From Pseudomonadota bacterium (GTDB taxonomy: Bacteria > Pseudomonadota > Alphaproteobacteria > Micavibrionales > UBA2020), in assembly GCA_021845905.1 (NCBI GenBank), contig JAJZVA010000005.1, positions 1 through 36,860 on the forward strand: 36,860 bases of DNA. The letters run 5' to 3'. The notes under the pieces are model-generated. The model was not told the origin of the DNA, did no database searches, and was given only the letters and a program-made list of their open reading frames with translations. This document shows positions 3,345-28,193 of this stretch, piece by piece; position 1 is the first letter of the stretch, and the number at the start of each line of letters is the position of its first letter. The translations under genes were made by a program, and so were the position numbers.

Positions 3345-4201
3345 CAGGCGGCCTTTGCTTTCGCGTAAGATTCGGGTTTCAGCAGCCGGTCGATGGAAAC
3401 GAGTTGCTCCAGCAAAGCGGGCATGTCTTTCAGGTTGACCATGTTGGGGCCGTCGGACGGCGCTTTGTCAGGGTCTTGGTGCGTTTCCATGAAGACGGCC
3501 GCGACAACGCCGGTCGCTATTGCCGCGCGCGCGAGATAAGGCACCATGCGGCGGTCGCCGCCCGTCGTCGCGCCGTTGCCGCCCGGAGACTGCACCGAGT
3601 GCGTCGCGTCGAACACCACAGGATGTCCCGTTTCCGCCATCACGGGCAGGGCGCGCATGTCGTTGACCAGCGTGTTGTAGCCGAAGGTCACGCCCCGCTC
3701 GCACAGCATCACGTCTTTGTTGCCGCTGTCGGTGATTTTGGCGGCGACGTTTTTCATGTCCCACGGCGCGAGAAACTGGCCTTTTTTGACGTTGATCGGT
3801 TTGCCGGTTTTGGCGGCGGCGATCAGAAGGTCGGTCTGGCGGCAGAGGAACGCGGGGATTTGCAAAACGTCGACATGTTCCGCGACGGCGGCGCATTGCT
3901 CGGGCGCGTGCACGTCGGTGACGACGGGCAGGCCGGTTTGTTTGCGCAAGTCGTCGAAGATCGGCATCGCTTTGTCAAATCCCATGCCGCGTCCGCCTTT
4001 CAGCGACGTGCGGTTGGCCTTGTCGAACGATGTTTTGTAGACGAATGGGATGTTCAGCTTTTGGGTGATCTCTTTCAGCGCGCCCGCCATGTCGAAGGCG
4101 TGATCCTTGCTTTCGAGCGCGCAAGGCCCCGCGATCAGCATGAAGGGCAGGTCGTTGCCGACTTTGAAATTCTTGAGGGAGATGTGGTGTTGTGCGGTCA
4201 T
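3344..4201 (-). CDS. kdsA: 2-dehydro-3-deoxyphosphooctonate aldolase (KDO-8-P synthase)
   Basis: 285 aa. Condenses phosphoenolpyruvate with D-arabinose 5-phosphate to KDO-8-phosphate, for the LPS inner core. Motifs: IAGPCALES (23-31), YKTSFDKANRTS (55-66), INVKKGQF (136-143), FDATHSVQSPGG (197-208), METHQDP (238-244). Cys27 replaces the Asn of metal-independent enzymes; with His201, Glu239 and Asp250 it makes the four-ligand site of the metal-dependent class (spacing close to that of the Aquifex enzyme). I chose ATG 4201, not an ATG 54 bases upstream, because AAAGGA stands 7-8 bases before it and homology begins there. First gene of the run kdsA - hydrolase - eno, consuming PEP next to the gene of the enzyme that makes it. 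Confidence 0.96.
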   Translation of the reverse strand: MTAQHHISLKNFKVGNDLPFMLIAGPCALESKDHAFDMAGALKEITQKLNIPFVYKTSFDKANRTSLKGGRGMGFDKAMPIFDDLRKQTGLPVVTDVHAPEQCAAVAEHVDVLQIPAFLCRQTDLLIAAAKTGKPINVKKGQFLAPWDMKNVAAKITDSGNKDVMLCERGVTFGYNTLVNDMRALPVMAETGHPVVFDATHSVQSPGGNGATTGGDRRMVPYLARAAIATGVVAAVFMETHQDPDKAPSDGPNMVNLKDMPALLEQLVSIDRLLKPESYAKAKAA

Positions 4202-4227
4202 GGGTTTTTTCCTTTGAATACAGGCGG

Positions 4228-4255
4228 AATTTAGCATGTGCGGGCGACATGTCAA
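4228..4255 (-). promoter_or_regulatory. Candidate kdsA promoter
   Basis: Minus strand: TTGACA (4255-4250), 16-base spacer, TAAATT (4233-4228), about 27 bases before the kdsA ATG. A perfect -35 and reasonable -10 make this one of the better promoters in the window. Confidence 0.6.
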
Positions 4256-4324
4256 TGTTTTTCATATTTATGTTTTTTTACCGATGTCGTGAACAGCAAA
4301 AAAAAAACGTCATAGACATAAGCG

Positions 4325-4358
4325 TATAATTATTATATGAATGCGTATTCATATAATA
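4325..4358 (+). promoter_or_regulatory. TATAAT box followed by a 12-bp-arm palindrome
   Basis: A perfect TATAAT (4325-4330) lacks a good -35. Directly after it, arms 4331-4342 (TATTATATGAAT) and 4347-4358 (ATTCATATAATA) pair perfectly around GCGT. The palindrome covers the expected transcription start, 19 bases before the ATG at 4377; it could be an operator for an autorepressor or a 5'-UTR hairpin. Confidence 0.5.
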
Positions 4359-4376
4359 TTTTATTAGGAAAAAATC

Positions 4377-5330
4377 ATGGCCGAGATGTTGAATATTGCC
4401 AGGGCGGACGCGGAGCCATTTTATGTGGACCCCGAGAAGATCACCGCCATCCATATCGCGCAGGACAATATCCGCGTTTCCGGCGCTGCCGGCGAAATGT
4501 TTTCGATCAATGCCGACTATAGAGGCGTCGATCTCGAGGACATGCTGCAAAAGATGCGCGACAGCGGCAATCCCATGCTGGGCTTTCCGGTCAGGTATGA
4601 AGGCGGCATGGAATATCCCTGCTATATCTCGCCGCGTGCGGTTACGTACCTGTCGGTTTTGGGGCATACGGCCAGCGGCAACGTCAAGGTTCTGGCGGGC
4701 GTCAAGGGCGTCAACAGAATAGAGACGGCGACGGCCGGCATGACGCAGAAAGAATATACGGACATTCACGACGCCGTCCTCGCCGCCAAGGATATGCTGG
4801 ATCTCAAGTCGCTTTGCATAGATCCGCGCGCGGTGGCGCAGATCGTGGATTGCGGGGATCGCCTGACGTTTTCTTTCGACCAGACGGGCGATGTCAATAT
4901 CATCGTCAAGCGCCCGCCCGTTCTCGGCGACAATCCGCGCGATACGGAGAACATGTCGCCTGAAGAATATAACCGGATGCTCTCCGCCTATCCCAAGGCC
5001 GTCGCCGAGGCGCAAGCAAGGGCGCATTTCAATTTCGCCGCAGGTATCGTCTCTTACGAACAAAACCGCCTGGTCAATCTCTCCACCGCGGACCGCGTCA
5101 ACTATATCCGCAAGAAAGACATCAGTCATGTCAGTTTCTATGACGCTCCCGAGCGCGGCGATTATTACCTGAGCGTTTTTCCCCGCAAGGACTTGCCGGA
5201 CAGGACGAACCTGGTCGTCATTTTCAACTCGGCCGCCGAGCGTCAGGCCGCTTTCGATATGTTGCAGAACGCGCCCGCGGAAGAGCCGGAATATCCCGGA
5301 AAAAGCGTGGTCAAAAAGTATAAATGGTAA
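4377..5330 (+). CDS. Hypothetical protein with four internal repeats
   Basis: 317 aa, no signal peptide or membrane segment, no family I recognise. Four short stretches share the pattern hydrophobic-[DS]-P/T-x-x-[VI]-x-x-[IL]: residues about 16-27 (YVDPEKITAIHI), 83-94 (YISPRAVTYLSV), 147-158 (CIDPRAVAQIVD) and 233-244 (LVNLSTADRVNY). Each is followed by alternating hydrophobic residues and then, in most, a helical-looking stretch, so the protein may be a tandem of small alpha/beta domains. ATG 4377 has AGGA 7 bases upstream. Monocistronic: divergent from kdsA, 74 bases before ftsB. The promoter region carries a striking palindrome. Role unknown. Confidence 0.85.
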   Translation: MAEMLNIARADAEPFYVDPEKITAIHIAQDNIRVSGAAGEMFSINADYRGVDLEDMLQKMRDSGNPMLGFPVRYEGGMEYPCYISPRAVTYLSVLGHTASGNVKVLAGVKGVNRIETATAGMTQKEYTDIHDAVLAAKDMLDLKSLCIDPRAVAQIVDCGDRLTFSFDQTGDVNIIVKRPPVLGDNPRDTENMSPEEYNRMLSAYPKAVAEAQARAHFNFAAGIVSYEQNRLVNLSTADRVNYIRKKDISHVSFYDAPERGDYYLSVFPRKDLPDRTNLVVIFNSAAERQAAFDMLQNAPAEEPEYPGKSVVKKYKW

Positions 5331-5369
5331 AGCCGGGTCTTGCCCGCCGCGCGCCTGCTCTTTTTTGGA

Positions 5370-5398
5370 TTGACGGTTTTTGTTCTCTGTGATTCCAT
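5370..5398 (+). promoter_or_regulatory. Weak candidate promoter for ftsB
   Basis: TTGACG (5370-5375), 17 bases, TTCCAT (5393-5398; only 3 of 6). It would place the start almost on the ftsB ATG at 5405, so a leaderless or very short leader transcript. Low certainty. Confidence 0.25.
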
Positions 5399-5404
5399 AG
5401 GCAA

Positions 5405-5719
5405 ATGAGCGCCTTGCCGCAAAATGACCGCAAACTGATTTCGCAGATGCTGGCGACGCTCTCCAGTTTCGGTCTGTTCGTGTATTTCTGCTATTTCCTG
5501 CTTCATGGCAATATGGGCTATTTCGCGTTGCAAGGCTTGAACGACAAGCTCGCGGCGGCGCAGGCGGAATACGATCAGGTGCACGCGGAGCGCATGGCGC
5601 TGCAAAACAGGGTCGTGCAACTGCGCCCCGGCAGCATCGATCCCGATATGCTGAGCGAGCGGGCGCGCATCGTTCTCGGCTACGCGAAGTCGGACGAACG
5701 CGTCCTGATCGATCCGTGA
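5405..5719 (+). CDS. ftsB: FtsB/DivIC-family cell division protein
   Basis: 104 aa bitopic membrane protein. A short cytoplasmic N-terminus is followed by a transmembrane helix at about residues 20-36 (SSFGLFVYFCYFLLHG), then a predicted coiled coil (about 42-72, LNDKLAAAQAEYDQVHAERM) and a C-terminal patch with DPDMLSERARIVLGYA, typical of the FtsB/DivIC family, which links divisome proteins FtsL and FtsQ. The position immediately before pdhA is conserved in alphaproteobacteria. The ribosome site is weak (AGGC just before ATG). About 170 bases separate it from pdhA. Confidence 0.88.
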   Translation: MSALPQNDRKLISQMLATLSSFGLFVYFCYFLLHGNMGYFALQGLNDKLAAAQAEYDQVHAERMALQNRVVQLRPGSIDPDMLSERARIVLGYAKSDERVLIDP

Positions 5720-5813
5720 CGGAAGAAACGCCCGTTTATTGCTGCGCCGCACAATGAATTTCATGTGTCTTTTCTATTATTATGGCATTTATTCGGCGTG
5801 AAGCATGTTGCAA

Positions 5814-5825
5814 AAGAGGCCTCTT
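5814..5825. repeat. 12-bp perfect palindrome before pdhA
   Basis: AAGAGGCCTCTT lies 62 bases before the likely pdhA start. It has operator-like symmetry, but I know of no regulator with this site; the function is unproven. Confidence 0.3.
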
Positions 5826-5887
5826 GGGCTTAGGTTTTGAGCCTGGCGAAAAAACGCAAATTCTTAAGGACAAAAGGGGAAAGCTCC

Positions 5888-6922
5888 TTGGCGAAACCAA
5901 CATCCGCAAGTCCGCCGGTTTCCGGCGGCAAGGCAAAATTGCAATCCGTGAACGCGGCGTCCAACGTCGCCACGCCGGAGCAGATGCTCGCTTTTTATAA
6001 AGGCATGTTGCTGATCCGCCGCTTCGAGGAAAAAGCGGGCCAGCTCTACGGCATGGGTTTGATCGGCGGGTTCTGCCACCTTTACATCGGGCAGGAAGCG
6101 GTCGTCACCGGCGTGCAGTCGGTGCTGGAGCCGAAAGACTCGGTCATCACAGCCTACCGCGACCACGGCCATATGCTCGCCTGCGGCATGGATCCGAAGG
6201 GCGTGATGGCGGAGCTGACCGGACGCGCGGGCGGCTATTCGCGCGGCAAGGGCGGCTCGATGCACATGTTCAGCCGCGAGAAGAATTTTTACGGCGGCCA
6301 CGGCATCGTCGGTGCGACGGGGCCGCTCGGCATCGGGCTGGCATTTGCGCACAAATATCGCGGCGACGGCGGCATCACCACCGCTTATTACGGCGATGGC
6401 GCGGCCAATCAGGGGCAGGTGCACGAGGCGTACAACATCGCCTCGCTGTGGAAGCTGCCGATCATCTTCATCATCGAAAACAACAAATACGGCATGGGCA
6501 CGAGCCAGAAGCGCCACGCCGCGGGCGATCTGCTCAAGCGCGCCGAAGGCTTCGGCATCTCCGGCGAAAAGGTCGACGGCATGGACGTGCTCGCCGTGCG
6601 GTCTGCGGCGCTGAAAGCGGTCGAGCATGTGCGCACGGGAGACGGCCCGATGCTGCTGGAAGTCGAAACCTACCGCTATCGCGGCCACTCGATGTCCGAC
6701 CCCGGCAAGTATCGCAGCAAGGAAGAAGTCGAGGACATGCGCGAGCATCACGATCCGATCGAGCACATCCGCAAGGCCATTCTGGGCAGCGGAAAAATGA
6801 CCGAGGAGGCCTTCAAGCCCATCGACAAGGAAATCAAAGAGATCGTCAACGCCGCCGCGGACTTCGCGCAGGCCAGTCCTGAGCCGGACCCGTCCGAGCT
6901 TTGGACGGATGTGTTGCTGTAA
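5888..6922 (+). CDS. pdhA: Pyruvate dehydrogenase E1 component, alpha subunit
   Basis: 344 aa from a TTG start at 5888. The frame is open further up (another TTG at 5837), but only 5888 has a good ribosome site (AAAAGGGGA, 7 bases before) and the resulting length fits the family; no ATG is available in the right place. Thiamine-diphosphate motif GDGAAN at 169-174 running to ENN about residue 200; also LLIRRFEEKAGQLYGMGLIGGFCHLYIGQE-type N-terminus, GSMHMF and the phosphorylation-loop-like YRYRGHSMSDPGKYR. With PdhB it decarboxylates pyruvate and transfers acetyl to lipoyl groups. First gene of pdhA-pdhB-pdhC-lpd, 16 bases before pdhB. Confidence 0.96.
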   Translation: MAKPTSASPPVSGGKAKLQSVNAASNVATPEQMLAFYKGMLLIRRFEEKAGQLYGMGLIGGFCHLYIGQEAVVTGVQSVLEPKDSVITAYRDHGHMLACGMDPKGVMAELTGRAGGYSRGKGGSMHMFSREKNFYGGHGIVGATGPLGIGLAFAHKYRGDGGITTAYYGDGAANQGQVHEAYNIASLWKLPIIFIIENNKYGMGTSQKRHAAGDLLKRAEGFGISGEKVDGMDVLAVRSAALKAVEHVRTGDGPMLLEVETYRYRGHSMSDPGKYRSKEEVEDMREHHDPIEHIRKAILGSGKMTEEAFKPIDKEIKEIVNAAADFAQASPEPDPSELWTDVLL

Positions 6923-6938
6923 AGGAAGGGTTTAGAAC

Positions 6939-8333
6939 ATGTCCATTCAAATTCTCATGCCCGCGCTGTCGCCGACCATGACCGAAGGCAAGCTTGCCAG
7001 ATGGGTCAAGCACGAAGGCGACGCCGTCAAGGCGGGTCAGGTGATTGCCGAGATCGAGACGGACAAGGCGACGATGGAGGTCGAGGCGGTCGACGAGGGC
7101 GTGATCGGTAAAATTCTCGTCGCGGAAGGCGCGGAGGGCGTCGCCGTCAACACGCCGATCGCGGTTCTGCTCGAAGACGGCGAAGACGCAGGAGATGTCG
7201 AGGTGACGTCATCGCCGTGCAGCATGCCCGAGCCGAAGATGATGGACACAAAGCCGCCCGCATGCCCGCCGCAAGCGCCTGCGCCAGCCGCGCATGCCGC
7301 ACCCGCGCAGGCCGTGGTGGATATCGACGAGGAAAAGTTTTTCAAAAACGTTCAGACCATGACGGTGCGCGAAGCGCTCTGCGCCGCGATGGCGGAAGAA
7401 ATGCGCCGCGACGGCGACGTCTTCGTCATGGGCGAGGAAGTGGCGGAATATCAGGGCGCATACAAGGTCACGCAAGGCCTGTTGCAGGAATTCGGCGACA
7501 GGCGCGTTATTGATACGCCGATCACCGAATATGGCTTCGCCGGCCTCGGCGTCGGCGCGGCCTTCGCGGGGCTAAAGCCGGTCGTCGAATTCATGACCTT
7601 CAACTTCGCCATGCAGGCCATCGACCACGTCGTCAACTCCGCCGCCAAGACATTATACATGGCGGGCGGACAGCTCGGTTGCCCCATCGTCTTCCGCGGG
7701 CCGAACGGAGCGGCGTCGCGCGTCGGCGCGCAGCACTCGCAGTGCTACGCGAGCTGGTACGGGCATGTGCCGGGGCTGAAAGTCATCGCGCCATGGTCGG
7801 GCGCGGACGCGAAAGGACTGCTCAAGGCCGCGATCCGCGACCCCAATCCGGTCGTCTTCCTTGAAAACGAAATCATGTACGGGCAGAGCTTCGATGTGCC
7901 GGTCGATCCGGAATTCATCATCCCGATCGGCAGGGCGAAGATCGAGCGCGCGGGCACGGACGTCACCATCACCGCGTTTTCGCGCATGGTCGGCGTCGCG
8001 CTTCAGGCGGCTGAAAAGCTCGCGGAGCAGGGCATCAGCGCGGAAGTGATCAACCTGCGCACCATCCGCCCGCTCGACGTCGAGACGATCGCTGCGAGCG
8101 TGAAGAAGACCAACCGTCTTGTGTCGGTCGAGGAAGGCTGGTATTTCGCGGGCATGGGCGCGGAGATCGCGGCGCAGATGATGGAGGTCTGTTTCGACGA
8201 TCTCGATGCGCCGGTCGTGCGCGTGTATGGCGCGGACGTGCCGATGCCTTACGCCGCCAACCTCGAAAAGCTCGCCCTGCCGCAGGAAGAAGACATCATC
8301 ACCGCAGCGAAGAAGGTAGCCTATGCCGCATAA
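6939..8333 (+). CDS. pdhB: Pyruvate dehydrogenase E1 component, beta subunit, with lipoyl domain
   Basis: 464 aa. Residues 1-80 are a biotinyl/lipoyl domain with Lys43 in [11 protein letters not shown] as the lipoylation site. After an Ala/Pro-rich linker (about 88-125), residues 135-464 form the E1-beta transketolase-like fold ([86 protein letters not shown]). The lipoyl fusion on E1-beta is a known alphaproteobacterial trait. Ribosome site AAGGAAGGG before ATG 6939. The end overlaps pdhC by 11 bases, so the subunits are probably translationally coupled. Confidence 0.97.
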
Positions 8334-9618
8334 CGTATTGATGCCGGCGCTCTCGCCGACGATGACCGAAGGCAAGCTCGCCAAGTGGGTCAAGAAAGAA
8401 GGCGATAAAGTCAAGGCCGGACAGGTCATCGCCGAAATCGAAACCGACAAGGCGACGATGGAAGTCGAGGCGGTCGACGAAGGCACGCTCGGAAAAATTC
8501 TCGTCGCGGAAGGCACTGAAGGCGTCGCCGTCAACACGCTGATCGCCGTGCTGCTCGAAGAGGGCGAGACGGCGAATGATATAAAGACAGACGCCGCACC
8601 GGCACCGAAAGCCGCCGCACCTGCACCCGCGGCGCCGGTCAAAACAGTGACGCCCGCGAATACGCAGAGCCCCGCGCCGCAAAAGACGGTCGCATTGCTG
8701 CCGCAAAAATCTGTTGCGCCGCTCTCGCAACAGGGCGGGCGCATTTATGCCTCGCCGCTGGCGAAACGTCTGGCGAAGGAACGCGGGATTGATTTGTCGC
8801 GCGTGACAGGTTCCGGCCCGCACGGACGGATTGTCAAGAGCGATCTCGATAAAGCGCCTGTCGGCGTTGCGCCGGTGAAGTCGGCTTCACCGACGTCATC
8901 CATCGACGCCAAAGCGCTGGCCGATGCGTATGGGATTCCCTACACGCTGCAGCCCAATTCCGGCGTGCGCAAGGTGATCGCCCGCCGTCTGCTGGAATCG
9001 AAGCAGACCGTGCCGCACTTTTATCTCACCGTCGATTGCGAGCTGGACGCGCTGCTCAAAATCCGCAAGGACCTGAACGACGGCGCGACGGATTTCAAGA
9101 TTTCCGTCAACGACTTCATCATCAAGGCGACGGCGGCGGCGCTGGTGAAATATCCCGCGGCGAACGTCTCGTGGACGGACGACGCGCTGTTGCAATATAC
9201 GCGCGCGGACGTGTCGGTCGCCGTCGCGACGCCGAACGGCCTCATCACGCCGATCATCAAGGACGCGGCGAACAAGAGCCTGAAAGTCATTTCCAACGAG
9301 ATGAAAGAACTGGCGCAAAAAGCCAAGGACGGCAAACTGAAGCCCGCAGAGTTTCAGGGCGGGACGATCTCCGTTTCCAATCTCGGCATGTTCGGCATCC
9401 GCGAATTTTCCGCGATCATCAACCCGCCGCAAGGGGCGATCCTCGCCGTCGGCGCGGGCGAAGAACGCGCGGTCGTCAGGAACGGGCAGTTGAAAATCGC
9501 CAATGTCATGACCGTCACCATGTCCGTCGATCACCGCGCCATCGACGGCGCGGTCGGCGCGGAGTTTTTGCAAATCTTCAAGAAACTGATCGAAAGCCCG
9601 ATGAGTTTAATCCTATGA
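8323..9618 (+). CDS. pdhC: Dihydrolipoamide acetyltransferase (PDH E2)
   Basis: 431 aa. Order: lipoyl domain 1-80 (Lys43 in [11 protein letters not shown], almost identical to that of PdhB), Ala/Pro linker, peripheral subunit-binding domain about 141-177 ([30 protein letters not shown]), second linker, then the catalytic acetyltransferase domain from about 207 with His404 and Asp408 in DHRAIDGA. E2 forms the core of the complex and makes acetyl-CoA. Starts inside pdhB (11-base overlap); its TGA overlaps the lpd ATG (ATGA). Confidence 0.97.
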
Positions 9619-11003
9619 CCGAACAAGACTTCGACATCATCGTGATCGGCGGCGGGCCGGGCGGCTATGTGGCGGCGATCCGCGCGGCGCAGCTTGGCAT
9701 GAAGACGGCGGTGGTCGAGCGCGAGCATCTCGGCGGCATCTGCCTCAACTGGGGCTGCATCCCGACCAAGGCGCTATTGCGCTCGGCGGAGATTTATCAC
9801 CTGATGCACCGCGCCGCCGAGTTCGGCCTCAAGGTCGAGAACGTCAGCTTCGATTTCTCCAAGATCATCGAGCGCTCGCGCAAAGTCTCGGCTCAGCTTT
9901 CCGGTGGCGTCAAACACCTCCTCAAGAAAAACAAGGTCACGGTGTTCGACGGGACGGCCAAACTGCTCGGAAAAGGCAAAATCTCCGTCGACGGCAAGAC
10001 GGAATTGAAAGCGCCGCACATCATCATCGCCACCGGCGCGCGGGCGCGGGTGCTGCCCGGTCTGGAGCCGGACGGAAAGCTGGTCTGGAGCTACAAGGAA
10101 GCGATGGTGCCGACGGAGATGCCGAAATCGGTGCTGGTGATCGGCTCGGGCGCGATCGGCGTCGAGTTCGCCAGCTTCTACCGCAGCCTCGGCGCGGACG
10201 TGACCGTCGCCGAAGTGATGGATCGTATTTTGCCGGTGGAAGATATTGATATTTCAACGTTCGCCCGCAAGCAGTTTGAAAAGCAGGGGATGAAAATCCT
10301 CACCTCGACGAAAATCGAGAAGCTGGAAAAATCCGCCGCGTCCGTCACCGCGCATATCGCCGTGGGCGGAAAAGTTGAAAAAATAACCGTCGACCGCGTG
10401 ATCTCCGCCGTCGGCATCTCAGGCAACGTCGAGAACATCGGCCTTGAAAACACCAAGGTGAAGGTCGACCGCGGACATATCGTCATCAACGAATGGATGC
10501 AGACGGGCGAGCCAGGCGTTTACGCCATCGGCGACGTCGCGGGCCCGCCGTGGCTGGCGCACAAGGCGAGCCACGAAGGCGTGATCTGCGTTGAAAAGAT
10601 CAAAGGTTTGGCCGACGTGCATCCGCTGAAGACGGAGAATATTCCGGGTTGCACCTATTGCACGCCGCAAATCGCCTCGGTCGGTTTGACCGAAGCGAAG
10701 GCGAAAGAAAAAGGATATCAGGTCAAGGTCGGCAAGTTCCCCTTCATCGGCAACGGCAAGGCGATTGCGCTCGGCGAGCCGGAGGGCATGGTCAAGACGG
10801 TGTTCGACGCAAAAACCGGCGAACTGCTCGGCGCGCACATGGTCGGCGCGGAAGTGACGGAGCTGATTCAAGGCTACGGCATCGCCAAGTCGCTTGAATC
10901 GACGGAGCTCGACCTGATGCACGCCGTCTTCCCGCACCCGACGCTCTCGGAAATGATGCATGAAAGCGTGCTGGATGCCTATGGCCGCGCCATTCACTTT
11001 TAG
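9615..11003 (+). CDS. lpd: Dihydrolipoyl dehydrogenase (PDH E3)
   Basis: 462 aa FAD flavoprotein that reoxidises dihydrolipoyl groups with NAD+. Start ATG 9615 overlaps the pdhC stop; the frame is open far upstream, but that part is only pdhC read out of frame. FAD motif GGGPGG (12-17), redox disulfide Cys43/Cys48 (CLNWGC), NAD motif [10 protein letters not shown], second FAD motif YAIGDVAG, and the C-terminal catalytic HPTLSE. The last seven codons including TAG are exactly repeated directly after the stop (22-bp tandem duplication), which leaves the protein end intact. Confidence 0.97.
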
Positions 11004-11025
11004 TGGCCGCGCCATTCACTTTTAG
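10982..11025. repeat. Exact 22-bp tandem duplication across the lpd stop
   Basis: The unit 10982-11003 (starts TGGCCGCGCC, ends CACTTTTAG) is repeated without change at 11004-11025. Each copy ends in TAG. Perfect identity suggests a recent slip; the remaining bases to 11095 contain no gene I can support. Confidence 0.95.
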
Positions 11026-11095
11026 TGACCGAGCTAAATCAGCTTGACAGTGACATAATGCGCTGATAGTTTGCACACATGCCATCGATCATGCC

Positions 11096-11182
11096 TTACA
11101 TCGCCGCTTTGGCCTCGATCTTCCTTTTCACCTCCGCATCCGCCTGGTGGCGCTGAGGCGCGACTGGCGCGGAGATATTCAC
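11096..11182 (-). CDS. Possible 28-codon ORF after the transpeptidase gene
   Basis: GTG at 11182 overlaps the preceding stop (GTGA) and reads 28 codons to TAA with strongly G/C-ending third positions (tail ADAEVKRKIEAKAAM), just as real genes do here. It may be a tiny coupled peptide, a lost C-terminus of the transpeptidase after a frameshift, or chance. Nothing in the short sequence identifies a family. Confidence 0.25.
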   Translation of the reverse strand: MNISAPVAPQRHQADAEVKRKIEAKAAM

Positions 11183-11685
11183 CGCATGCGGCGCAGCTTC
11201 TTCAGTTCTTTTTTTGAAAGGCTTTTCGGCGGCACGATCTTCACTTCGTCGCCGACCTGCAAAGCGTCGTAGATTTTGACGATGTCTTCCGGCGAGAAGA
11301 CGATGCATCCTTCCGAATTCGGCGTGCCGAGCTTGCTCGCGTGGCTGGTGCCGTGCAGATAGATGTAGCGATCCTTGGTGTTGCTGTTGTGGCGCTCCGC
11401 GCCTTCGAGCCAGAGGATGCGTGTGAGCACCGGCGATTGGCCGTCGCGCTCCTGTCCGTCCCACAGACCGCTGGCGACGCGGTCGTTGAAGACGGTATGC
11501 AGCGGCATGCCGCCGCCGAATTTTTCCGACACGCGCAGTTTGCCGATCGGCGTGCGGTTGCTGCCTTCCTTGTTGCCGATGCCTCTTTTGCCGGTGGAGA
11601 TGTTGAACTCGCTTTTGAGCAACCGTCCTTCATAGAGGCGGGCTTTTTGCTGTTCTACGTCGATGATGAGCTTCCTGCGTCCCAT
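11179..11685 (-). CDS. L,D-transpeptidase (YkuD) family protein
   Basis: 168 aa. YkuD domain nearly end to end: N-terminal strand KLIIDVEQQKARLYEG, RTPIG at 44-48, and catalytic signature His111-GTSH ... Ser124-EGC127-I. The family makes 3-3 crosslinks in peptidoglycan or attaches proteins to it. Unusually, no signal peptide or membrane anchor is visible, and the frame closes 12 codons upstream (TGA at 11719-11721) without an earlier ATG, GTG or TTG; export would need another route. A Lys/Arg-rich tail (SLSKKELKKLRRMR) ends it. No strong ribosome site. It follows the FtsH-like gene on the same strand after about 105 bases. Confidence 0.88.
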   Translation of the reverse strand: MGRRKLIIDVEQQKARLYEGRLLKSEFNISTGKRGIGNKEGSNRTPIGKLRVSEKFGGGMPLHTVFNDRVASGLWDGQERDGQSPVLTRILWLEGAERHNSNTKDRYIYLHGTSHASKLGTPNSEGCIVFSPEDIVKIYDALQVGDEVKIVPPKSLSKKELKKLRRMR

Positions 11686-11790
11686 TGTCTTAAATGGTAT
11701 ATGAAAATGCAGAATTTGTCAAACTTCTCATGCAGTCATCTGTTTTAAAAGGAAAAACTATATCGGAGTCATTCCTTTCAAAGCGACATT

Positions 11791-13848
<2,058 letters not shown>

Positions 13849-13924
13849 GATAAAATTCCCCAAGTTAAGTCAGTCTGATCGTTGAATGGCATGGTTATCG
13901 TGTGTATTTATTTGTTATGAATAT

Positions 13925-13953
13925 ATCATATGTAAAACTTAATGAAAAGTAAA
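13925..13953 (-). promoter_or_regulatory. Candidate promoter of the FtsH-like gene
   Basis: Minus strand: TTTACT (13953-13948), 17-base spacer, TATGAT (13930-13925), about 77 bases before the ATG. The surrounding 130 bases are very AT-rich. Confidence 0.45.
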
Positions 13954-13965
13954 AAACTGCGGATC

Positions 13966-13986
13966 TTTTGAAACTTTATTTCAAAA
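13966..13986. repeat. AT-rich inverted repeat between slt and the FtsH-like gene
   Basis: TTTTGAAA (13966-13973) and TTTCAAAA (13979-13986) with a 5-base loop, 14 bases after the slt stop. Without a T run after it on the minus strand it is not a classical terminator; it might be a weak one or a protein site. Confidence 0.4.
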
Positions 13987-13999
13987 AAATAGTCATTAT

Positions 14000-15979
14000 T
14001 TAAAAATCAAAGATGGTTTTGGGCTTTTCCGCGAGGCGCAACCTGTAAAGATAATAAGTCTCAAGGACGCGCTGTATATAATTGCGCGTCTCGTAAATGG
14101 GAATTTCCTCGATCCAGTCGATGACATTGACGCCTTTGTCGCGCGGGTCGCCGAATTCATTGATCCATTCATTCACATTGCGCGGCCCGGCGTTATAGGC
14201 GGCGATGGCGAGCGGATAAAAGCCGTTATACGTGTCCAAAAGCTGCTGAAGATAAGCCGCGCCGAGCCGGACGTTGTATTGCGGATCCCCGACGAGCGCG
14301 TCGCGGCTGTAGCGCGCGTCGATGCGCCGCGCGATCTGGTGCGCCGTGCCCGGCATGAGCTGCATGAGGCCGAGCGCGCCCGCGGGGCTTTGCGCGTTGG
14401 CGTCGAACATGCTTTCGCGGTGCACGATGGCGTCGATCAGCGCGTTCTCCGGGCGGGCGTCCGCTTTGGGCGGCAGCAGCGGATAGCCTTCGGGATAGAT
14501 GAACGTGCCGAGCAGCATTTGCATGCGCATGTTGGCGAGCACGGCGAACTGCGGGCGGTTGACCTGATAGGCGAGGCGGGCGATCTGCGTGAACTCGGGC
14601 CGCGTTTGCGCCATATAGAGCATTTTGTAGAAGAACGGATCGGTTTCCTTGGCGAGGCCGTCGGCGTTCAGCAGGCGCACGGCGCGGACAAGCTCGTTGG
14701 CGTCGAAATCCTGCCGGTCTTGCGCGGAGACGCGAACGTCGCGGAACAGGTCGGGCGGCGTTTTTTTCCGCGCGGCGCCGGCATAAGCGAGCTGGCCGTA
14801 GAAGGTCGAGGGATATTGCGCGGCGATGCGCTCCCAGCGGCGGGCGGTGACGCGCCAGCCCATTTTCCGCGCGGCGCGTCCGAGCCAGTAAGCCCCGCGC
14901 GCGCAGGAGATGGCGGATTCCGCGGCGTTGTAAAAGCTTTCGAAATGCAGATAGGCGGGGCGCGGGCGCTTGAGAAAATCGAGGTCGAGCCAGCCGAGAA
15001 GCCATTCCCTGGTGATGTAATCGTCGCCGGATCTGACTTCGCTGTCGTTGATGAGGTCGAAGGCGCGGCTGAAATCATGCTTTTCGATCGCGCGGCGGGC
15101 GAGGATGTCGCGCTCGCGCCACCAGAGGTCGATATGCGGCGGATTTTTCGGTTCCTGCCGCAAGAGAAGATAGGCGTCCGTGTCGTGCTTCGTCATCCGC
15201 AGCCAGCGGACGCGCGCGTAGATCAGGCCGGGATCGTTTTGCTCCGCGCGCGGCACGCGCCGCACCCGCCACGAGACGTCGCGCGCCATGCGGCCGAGCG
15301 CGATGCGCGCCTTTGCGATCCTGACGTCTTTCGCGCCGACGAAGGGGAACAGATATTCCGCTTCGGTGAAACGGTCCGACCACAAGAGGTTTTCCAGCCG
15401 TTCGTGCTGGAGTTGCGGCGTCAGGAAGGCGCGGTAGCGCGCGGCGAGATCGCGGGTTTGCGCGGCGGTGAGGTCGGCGCGCGGCCAGAATTTTTCCAGT
15501 GCGGTCTGTTGCCCCGCCTTGTCGCCGCGCGCGCCGAGCGCCCACATGGCGGCGTTGAAGGCGTCGACCTTCTGCGGCGGATGCTTCGTGAACCATGCGG
15601 CGATCTGGCTGGCGCGCAGGTCGGAGGTCTTGATGCCGTTTTCGATCTGCTGGGCGAAGATGTAAAGCTCCGGCCAGTCGGGGTTCGCGTCGGCGAAGGC
15701 GATCAGCGTGCTGGCGGGCACCGGCTTGTCGGTTTGCGTGATCGTCAGCCACAAAACGAGCTTGTGCGCCAGCGGCGAAGGATCGTTCATCAGTCGCCGG
15801 TTGTGCTGCCAGCCGCGCCAGTTGAATATGGAGGCGCGCGCGGGACTGACCGGCGCGTGGAGGCCGCAAACCAGTAAAAATCCGGCAAAAATGCCTGAAA
15901 AAAGGGCTTTTTTCAGCAGGAACGCGGCGGGTTGCTTGCGCCTTTGCCCGCGGCGGGGTAGAGTGGGCGCTGTTTTCAA
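14000..15979 (-). CDS. slt: Soluble lytic murein transglycosylase (Slt type, GH23)
   Basis: About 659 aa if begun at TTG 15979. The protein has a signal peptide (KKALFSGIFAGFLLVCGL ... SPARA), a long alpha-helical, superhelical U-domain-like region (about 60-480), and a C-terminal SLT domain with catalytic Glu in AIVHRESMFDANAQSPAGALGLMQLMPGTA-type sequence, then YNVRLGAAYLQQLL and AIAAYNAGPRNVNEW. It cleaves glycan strands to 1,6-anhydroMurNAc in the periplasm. The start is uncertain: the only in-frame ATGs lie inside divergent dapA (16120 and beyond), TTG 15979 has no Shine-Dalgarno, and a start further down is possible. Size agrees with E. coli Slt70. Confidence 0.92.
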   Translation of the reverse strand: MKTAPTLPRRGQRRKQPAAFLLKKALFSGIFAGFLLVCGLHAPVSPARASIFNWRGWQHNRRLMNDPSPLAHKLVLWLTITQTDKPVPASTLIAFADANPDWPELYIFAQQIENGIKTSDLRASQIAAWFTKHPPQKVDAFNAAMWALGARGDKAGQQTALEKFWPRADLTAAQTRDLAARYRAFLTPQLQHERLENLLWSDRFTEAEYLFPFVGAKDVRIAKARIALGRMARDVSWRVRRVPRAEQNDPGLIYARVRWLRMTKHDTDAYLLLRQEPKNPPHIDLWWRERDILARRAIEKHDFSRAFDLINDSEVRSGDDYITREWLLGWLDLDFLKRPRPAYLHFESFYNAAESAISCARGAYWLGRAARKMGWRVTARRWERIAAQYPSTFYGQLAYAGAARKKTPPDLFRDVRVSAQDRQDFDANELVRAVRLLNADGLAKETDPFFYKMLYMAQTRPEFTQIARLAYQVNRPQFAVLANMRMQMLLGTFIYPEGYPLLPPKADARPENALIDAIVHRESMFDANAQSPAGALGLMQLMPGTAHQIARRIDARYSRDALVGDPQYNVRLGAAYLQQLLDTYNGFYPLAIAAYNAGPRNVNEWINEFGDPRDKGVNVIDWIEEIPIYETRNYIQRVLETYYLYRLRLAEKPKTIFDF

Positions 15980-24665: not shown

Positions 24666-27347
<2,682 letters not shown>

Positions 27348-27350
27348 CGC

Positions 27351-27977
27351 ATGAAGAAAGCCGTTATCTTCGCCGCTGTCGCGGGTGTTTTGGCGGGATC
27401 TTCGGTCGCGCGGGCGCAAAGCGCCGCAGCGCCCGCGTCTCCCGCGCCTGCGGCAACGCAGCAAGCCTTGCCGGCCTGGCTGCAATATCACTCTCCCTAT
27501 GCCGGGAAGGAGAGCGACATCGCCAATCCGCACCGCACGATCGGCGAGATTGAAATCTGGGCCGAGCAAACCGCCGCCGACGTCCTGTCGTTCAACAAGC
27601 GGAACTATACGCCAAAGATGACGGGGTTTCAGAAATATTTCACGCCGTCCGGCTGGAAGCAGTATGCCGATTATCTTCAGTCTTCCCGCATCGTCGACAT
27701 GGTGGGGACGGACAATTATTCCGTCGGCACGATCGTCGACGAAAGGCCGCTGGTCATCAATCAGGGCGACGTCAACGGCGCTTACAACTGGATTTTGCGC
27801 ATGCCGGTGACGATCAGCTTCTTCACCAAGGATCCGGTGACGGGCACGGAAAAAACCGGGCCTTCCGCGAAGTTCTATCTTTTCATGGACGTCGCGCGCG
27901 TGGCGAGCGGCGGCGGAGAAAACGGCATCGCCATCGCCGACTGGCGCATGGAGAACAACACCAGCACGCAGAATTAG
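27351..27977 (+). CDS. Secreted DotI/IcmL-like protein
   Basis: 208 aa. Signal peptide MKKAVIFAAVAGVLAGSSVA with ARA-Q cleavage after about residue 22, then an Ala/Pro linker, then a domain whose pattern matches the periplasmic IcmL/DotI family of type IVB secretion and conjugation machines: ADVLSFNKRNYTPKM, YFTPSGWKQYADYLQSSRIV, ERPLVINQGDVNGAYNWILR, MPVTISFF. Classical DotI/IcmL has an N-terminal transmembrane anchor; here it seems to be a cleavable signal, so the protein may be soluble in the periplasm. Three bases after acnA, thus probably cotranscribed. No other dot/icm gene is in the window. Family assignment is by pattern only. Confidence 0.7.
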   Translation: MKKAVIFAAVAGVLAGSSVARAQSAAAPASPAPAATQQALPAWLQYHSPYAGKESDIANPHRTIGEIEIWAEQTAADVLSFNKRNYTPKMTGFQKYFTPSGWKQYADYLQSSRIVDMVGTDNYSVGTIVDERPLVINQGDVNGAYNWILRMPVTISFFTKDPVTGTEKTGPSAKFYLFMDVARVASGGGENGIAIADWRMENNTSTQN

Positions 27978-28165
27978 GACGTCGACTTGAAAAGCGCATC
28001 TGCGGCGGCCTTGTGTTTTTCCTTCCTGGCGATGTCGGCTTCGGCGCGGACGATTTCCTCTTTCAGCTGAAGGACGTATTCCTTCAGTTCCGGAACGGAA
28101 AGATTGTCGAGTGGGCGCGGTTTGGGTTTCTTGGTTTTGGGGTCGAGATCGTCGTCAAAAATCAT
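27974..28165 (-). CDS. DUF1192 small protein
   Basis: 63 aa. MIFDDDLDPKTKKPKPRPLD followed by LSVPELKEYVLQLKEEIVRA and a charged coiled-coil end with AAADALFK: the typical plan of DUF1192, an alphaproteobacterial family of unknown function. ATG 28165 has AAGGA 8-10 bases upstream; longer versions of the frame would run into the divergent gene. Only 28 bases separate it from the oppositely oriented quinone oxidoreductase. Its stop overlaps that of the IcmL-like gene by 4 bases. Confidence 0.85.
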   Translation of the reverse strand: MIFDDDLDPKTKKPKPRPLDNLSVPELKEYVLQLKEEIVRAEADIARKEKHKAAADALFKSTS

Positions 28166-28193
28166 CTGTTTCTTCCTTTGGAGTGTCACGCTC

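Follow-up and report, generated by a model that had tools for sequence, protein, structure and literature searches.

A stand-alone DotI/IcmL paralogue in relatives of Micavibrio that carry type IVB secretion genes

Introduction

In type IVB secretion systems (T4BSSs), DotI (IcmL) is an inner-membrane subunit and the counterpart of VirB8, a membrane-anchored protein. Duplicated DotI (IcmL) genes are described for Coxiella (PMC4454188). An exoproteome study of type II secretion lists Legionella IcmL-like proteins with signal sequences (PMC12239567).

An earlier note on a stretch of 36,860 nucleotides from a member of the Micavibrionales (the window, that is, the whole stretch of DNA analysed) drew attention to a gene of this type next to acnA, and suggested either a domain put to another use or a component whose machine has its genes at another site. 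The gene, here called the solo gene, was followed up by profile searches, structure comparison, a tree and surveys of related genomes. It is real and is now partly explained: relatives of Micavibrio that bear a T4BSS conserve a DotI paralogue that stands alone.

The solo gene and its protein with a predicted signal

The frame of the solo gene is intact over 208 codons, as read from the sequence, and its features are collected in Table 1. Between the stop of acnA and the start of the solo gene lie three bases, CGC at 27348-27350, just as the earlier note had counted. Since the convergent DUF1192 gene has a stop that overlaps that of the solo gene, acnA and the solo gene make up one unit in the gene order, closed by the DUF1192 gene, and the two are probably cotranscribed. 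Among the open reading frames of the window that were read, no type IV secretion genes were noted.

The protein begins with MKKAVIFAAVAGVLAGSSVARA followed by Q, in which a Sec-type signal with an A-x-A site is predicted by eye; this agrees with the cleavable-type signal claimed before, and the protein is presumably exported to the periplasm. Mean pLDDT per 10-residue block is 84-98 from residue 61 on, and 72 for residues 201-208.

Table 1. Positions in the window of the solo gene, the parts of its protein and the adjoining genes.
Feature	Position	Strand	Basis
Solo IcmL/DotI-domain gene	27351..27977	+	208 aa, ATG to TAG; PF11393, PDB and fold matches
Predicted signal peptide, residues 1-22, site between ARA and Q	27351..27416	+	By eye; pLDDT 51-58 over residues 1-30
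Pro/Ala/Gln-rich linker, residues 23-58	27417..27524	+	Sequence; pLDDT 58-75 in 10-residue blocks over 21-60
VirB8/DotI-type periplasmic domain, residues 59-204	27525..27962	+	pLDDT blocks; 62-204 aligned to 3wz5_C
P60-H61-R62 signature of solo copies	27528..27536	+	P-N-L/M in DotI; column counts
acnA, aconitate hydratase, upstream of solo gene	24666..27347	+	Pfam Aconitase 576.5 bits, Aconitase_C 140.7 bits
Possible ribosome-binding site AGAAAGG inside acnA end	27333..27339	+	Read from sequence
Convergent DUF1192 gene	27974..28168	-	Stop overlaps solo stop; Pfam DUF1192 69 bits

A profile search of the solo protein gave a match to PF11393 (DotI/IcmL) with 64.9 bits (E 8.3e-18; cut-off 27.7), beginning at position 44 of 180. 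In the PDB, the DotI crystal chain 3wz4 was matched by sequence at E 1e-12, and a profile built from 23 relatives reached DotI at E 2.2e-22. The AlphaFold model of the protein has a pLDDT of 84.4, with values of at least 90 at 126 of 208 residues. Compared with this model, DotI 3wz5 (chain C) gave a Z of 19.8 with an rmsd of 1.6 over 135 aligned residues, TraM of R64 (3wz3) also a Z of 19.8, the Legionella IcmL-like protein lpg0120 (5cnl) 18.9, VirB8 proteins about 14, and unrelated members of the NTF2-like fold class, which serves many ends, 9-11. By profile and predicted fold, the solo protein is a member of the DotI/IcmL-domain family (PF11393). The DotI/IcmL-like domain read by the earlier note is borne out, and the HMM search proposed there returned a significant match rather than none.

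The protein is not DotI proper, as it falls below the cut-off of the equivalog model: with NF038072 it scored 81 bits against a cut-off of 175, which a DotI copy on contig 20 of the same genome exceeds with 207.7 bits. Two features of DotI are also absent from the solo protein and its gene. No N-terminal transmembrane anchor precedes the domain, the place being taken by the signal predicted by eye, and the gene does not lie directly upstream of dotH, as it follows acnA on contig 3.

Descent and divergence from apparatus DotI

An unrooted tree of 131 domains was built. A branch with support 99/96 has 72 solo copies on one side, and 46 DotI-type domains from apparatus loci and 11 second IcmL domains on the other. 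The two solo copies of genome G326, from another alphaproteobacterial family, fall one on each side of this branch with long branches of their own, and some inner forks among the solo copies are weak. The copies that follow acnA form one group with support 98/95. The second IcmL branches inside DotI, where at least two changes are needed.

In 15 genome pairs the DotI domains are 51-78% identical and the solo domains 21-40%. Both types have in common the fold residues W70, G143, Y145, W147, P152, R183 and W198. At residues 61-62 the 72 solo copies carry H in 93% and R in 86%, and 43 DotI sequences carry N in 98% and L in 86%. Judged by these comparisons, the solo copies are separate from apparatus DotI and diverge faster. 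By a rough rule, an A-x-A cleavage-type site is found in 48 of the 72 solo copies, and the other 24 are a mix: some have true anchors (for example in genera g10, g11 and g48), some have signals of another form, and in some the start was misread. In the sequences compared, the export route varies and the periplasmic domain is kept.

These data bear on two alternatives. The solo protein could be a backup or alternative DotI that takes the place of DotI itself in the inner-membrane ring when some condition calls for it, a role suggested by a fold identical in type to that of DotI and by the DotI-like N-terminal anchor of some copies, in those three genera and others. This is improbable, however, with a cleavable-type signal and no anchor in most copies, all 72 solo copies across the supported branch from DotI, and P-H-R in place of the DotI-type P-N-L/M. 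Moreover, native oligomers are driven by the N-terminal membrane region in the model put forward by Kuroda et al. (PMC4454188). High divergence might also betray a decaying, pseudogene-like duplicate, but this is scarcely credible for a gene that at least 120 of 142 genomes carry and whose frames are open and fold residues conserved; the single in-range stop flagged for G104 leaves its 247-aa open reading frame unbroken, as found on checking the row of that genome.

A type IVB secretion core elsewhere in the genome

The source genome comprises 2.42 Mb in 26 contigs and is 98.8% complete. On contig 20 the order is DotI, a second IcmL (IcmL2), DotH/IcmK, a DotG/TraO-like protein, one further protein, TraQ-like, DUF6750-like, IcmJ/DotN-like and a DotO-like ATPase. 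The two further IcmL genes of the genome are thus adjacent and upstream of DotH. Above their cut-offs are DotI (NF038072, given above) and DotH/IcmK (PF12293, 249.9 bits); the DotG-like protein scored 137.7 bits with NF033900, below the cut-off of 750, and the IcmJ-like protein 87.5 bits with NF038221, below the cut-off of 100. The DotO-like ATPase (1034 aa) matched no DotO model and is named from its position and its plasmid relatives, which at 80% coverage or more occur on 3623 of 72,556 plasmid records; in the PDB it had no sequence match at E 0.01.

Contig 13 carries matches to DotC, DotB and DotD, with 53%, 63% and 49% identity to genes of genome G063 that in turn match PF16932, TIGR02524 and PF16816. 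The DotB gene of G063 reached 408.8 bits with TIGR02524, below the cut-off of 463.3. PF10412 (TrwB_AAD_bind), a model that is not DotL-specific, matched with 103.7 bits at G000:C4:117022-117951, in a 1092-aa frame of the genome studied here; this may be a coupling protein or belong to a mobile element. In relatives few strong PF10412 matches were seen, and none in G124, G126 and G005.

As read from these genes, the source genome holds a T4BSS core away from the solo gene, and the puzzle of a lone secretion domain is explained by a machine present on other contigs. The claim that no partner lies nearby holds for the surroundings of the gene only, given the T4BSS loci on contigs 20 and 13. The genome search that had been suggested for dotB, dotO, icmK and paralogues found DotB, a DotO-like gene, DotH/IcmK and two IcmL paralogues. 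The machine supposed in the second suggestion of the earlier note has been located, and the membership of the solo protein in it would follow only from the reading proposed below.

Several side observations concern this locus. In family f1, and in a few other cases, DotI has a second full-length IcmL next to it (L004:4286-4921), a duplication separate from the solo gene. The flagellar genes flgK and flgL adjoin the T4BSS locus in the genome studied here (L004:124-3245, 3455-14214) and in several distant relatives (L125, L129/L038, L140/L037, L130), so that the linkage is a conserved one. In G047 (L125, G047:C1:2421000-2440999), DotI, DotH, a DotG-like gene, IcmJ and a DotO-like gene lie at about 1.4-12 kb of the locus, with DotC at G047:C1:2442550.

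Neighbouring genes and the link to acnA

In families f1 and f2 all 22 solo copies that could be assessed come directly after acnA and share its strand, with the aligned end within 0-213 bases. Outside them, 50 genomes were hand-picked across genera from 97 solo-bearing genomes, and the solo gene is next to acnA in none (0/50). In these, COQ9 is a same-strand upstream neighbour no more than 300 bases off in 39/50 copies, GapR lies downstream within 300 bases in 34/50, and all 50 have one or more of COQ9, UbiB and GapR beside the solo gene. COQ9 and GapR were named by Pfam, and the marker for UbiB matched Pfam ABC1. From the two kinds of context, with acnA and with COQ9, UbiB or GapR, it follows that there was at least one move of the solo gene from one housekeeping unit to another. 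The adjacency to acnA, on the same grounds, is a lineage-specific trait of gene order. In none of 72 loci read was the solo gene inside a T4BSS locus.

A functional partnership with aconitase or the TCA cycle, in which linkage reflects a shared pathway, would account for the constant adjacency in f1 and f2. It is extremely unlikely in view of its absence from the other families, where COQ9, UbiB and GapR are the neighbours, and of the export-type signal of a protein whose supposed partner, aconitase, is cytoplasmic. The coupling with aconitase that headed the earlier note stands as gene order within these two families and fails as a general association; as a mechanism it was dropped on this shift of context.

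Distribution of solo copies and T4BSS genes

A solo copy was defined as an IcmL match that is not within 8 kb of DotH on one contig, and counts were taken from listed matches with hand-copied coordinates, so that they are lower bounds. Of 142 genomes of the order, 138 have an IcmL match, 132 have DotH and at least 120 have a solo copy. Among the matches listed, 112 genomes have both a solo copy and DotH, 8 a solo copy only, 20 DotH only and 2 neither. The 8 genomes with a solo copy only include 6 with a DotO-like gene. The remaining two, G064 and G107, are 99-100% complete and keep the solo gene, and DotH, DotO and DotC were not found in them. These two also lack FlgK and have FlhA, and flgK adjoins the T4BSS locus in relatives. 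Since flagellar genes are there without flgK, the contig with the T4BSS and flgK is probably missing, so that their missing T4BSS probably reflects assembly gaps. They had been considered as cases of a solo gene independent of the T4BSS; they were counted neither way. A flanking gene, which we take to be HtpX-like, is not conserved as a flank, and a search with it could not inform on this gap.

The 20 DotH-bearing genomes without a solo copy among the matches listed include nearly complete ones (G002, G063 and G119). From these it follows that the solo gene appears to be either dispensable or diverged past detection in genomes with DotH only. In G104, contig C8 (L042, L043) holds IcmD-like genes, IcmJ and a DotO-like gene beside what is presumably an accC-like gene, with DotC about 43 kb off, and DotI, DotH and FlgK were not found; its T4BSS reads as split or incompletely assembled.

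In an even sample of the class, IcmL was found in 15/387 genomes, 5 of the 15 from this order. Among the 10 others, copies away from the apparatus were seen in one, G326, which also has DotI, DotH and DotO-like genes at its own apparatus locus. Its two copies (L128:5920-6573 and 6621-7172) are adjacent, apparently membrane-anchored and on a different contig from the T4BSS, next to genes that we assume to be transketolase- and GAPDH-like. In an even sample of the phylum, IcmL was found in 8/397 genomes, 7 of them above the cut-off. One of these 8 genomes, G828, has the order DotJ-DotI-DotH and dispersed IcmL copies with signal-type N-termini; from this order and a copy resembling lpg0120 it reads as Legionella-like. 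It also encodes a 571-aa protein with two tandem IcmL domains and a signal-type N-terminus (L198:1414-3129). A plasmid origin of the solo type was rejected: 13 plasmid records match the IcmL domain, 12 annotated as DotI-type and 1 without annotation, and none of the 13 over 80% of the query.

Within the reach of these searches, the solo gene is confined to T4BSS-bearing lineages. This co-distribution favours a T4BSS reading, with little power because nearly all genomes of the order carry both genes. It has to be weighed against repurposing of the domain, in which an NTF2-like protein, either periplasmic or exported by the type II route, would have no tie to the T4BSS any more and would, for example, bind a ligand or an envelope partner. 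Fast divergence of the solo copies, loss of the canonical anchor in most of them, their genomic separation from the T4BSS and the versatility of the fold class would all suit such a protein, as would the lower amounts of Legionella IcmL-like proteins in supernatants of a type II mutant, reported in PMC12239567. Repurposing is possible, though we would not call it probable; in the searched genomes the solo type occurs only alongside T4BSS genes, save the two probable assembly gaps.

The genome paper on Micavibrio aeruginosavorus ARL-13 (PMC3189940) reported that it saw no evidence for type IV secretion. Contrary to that statement, a chromosomal type IVB core is kept in the order of Micavibrio, which has been studied for its epibiotic predators, and its near-universal presence is more surprising than the solo gene.

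Proposed role of the solo protein

A conserved paralogue outside the cluster is a candidate accessory part of the T4BSS. The best reading is that the solo protein arose long ago as a paralogue of the VirB8/DotI subunit, without an anchor and with an accessory part to play. In its full form, this is a third, stand-alone DotI/IcmL paralogue that leaves the cytoplasm by the Sec route, has its signal removed and serves as a soluble periplasmic accessory part of the T4BSS, to which we give an even chance. Export and signal cleavage would leave a free VirB8-fold domain in the periplasm, which may dock on the ring that the DotI/IcmL2 domains form, or else on DotH/DotG. We infer that it works in the T4BSS in this way, as an anchorless copy that is additional, exchangeable or regulatory. 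Tight packing does not seem to hold it, since the gene lies outside the T4BSS locus and is far less conserved than DotI. In a minority of relatives an N-terminal membrane anchor would deliver the domain instead, so that the periplasmic domain would be kept and the mode of delivery not. The place after acnA would offer merely a housekeeping transcription unit.

A wider version, that the vertically kept chromosomal T4BSSs of Micavibrio relatives and, separately, of Legionella each evolved a free periplasmic VirB8-type subunit built into or regulating the DotI ring from its periplasmic side, is rather unlikely. If true, the subunit would have escaped notice because its gene never lies in the secretion cluster, and prey cells would be the target of the machine in Micavibrio relatives. 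The signal-bearing IcmL-like proteins in the type II exoproteome of Legionella (PMC12239567), by analogy, would point away from a T4BSS role.

Comparison with known systems

With DotI/IcmL of Legionella (3wz4, 3wz5) and TraM of R64 (3wz3), the solo protein shares the VirB8-type periplasmic domain of PF11393. It differs from them as a solo protein without an N-terminal anchor, encoded outside a dot/icm cluster and scoring 81 against 175 bits, and it differs from DotI of its own order in having P-H-R instead of P-N-L/M. VirB8 of type IVA systems (CagV 6iqt, TrwG 4nhf, R388 arches 8rta) is of the same fold class, with Z about 14, and belongs to a different subfamily, with 6-11% identity in the rows compared.

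Coxiella (PMC4454188) resembles the genomes described here in having an extra IcmL paralogue in a T4BSS-bearing genome; by arrangement, its duplicates would be closer to the second IcmL of contig 20, which branches inside DotI, than to the solo gene.

There is also a likeness in build to lpg0120 of Legionella (5cnl) and to the IcmL-like exoproteins of PMC12239567, which have a stand-alone IcmL domain, a signal and a dispersed locus. The solo protein likewise combines an IcmL domain and a signal with no secretion cluster around its gene, and comparable copies are found in G828. Identity to the lpg0120 type is only 18-20%, and the Legionella proteins were detected in supernatants (PMC12239567). 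Stand-alone, signal-bearing IcmL proteins were thus already known from Legionella, and what is new here is a copy that runs through nearly a whole order and shifts its genomic context.
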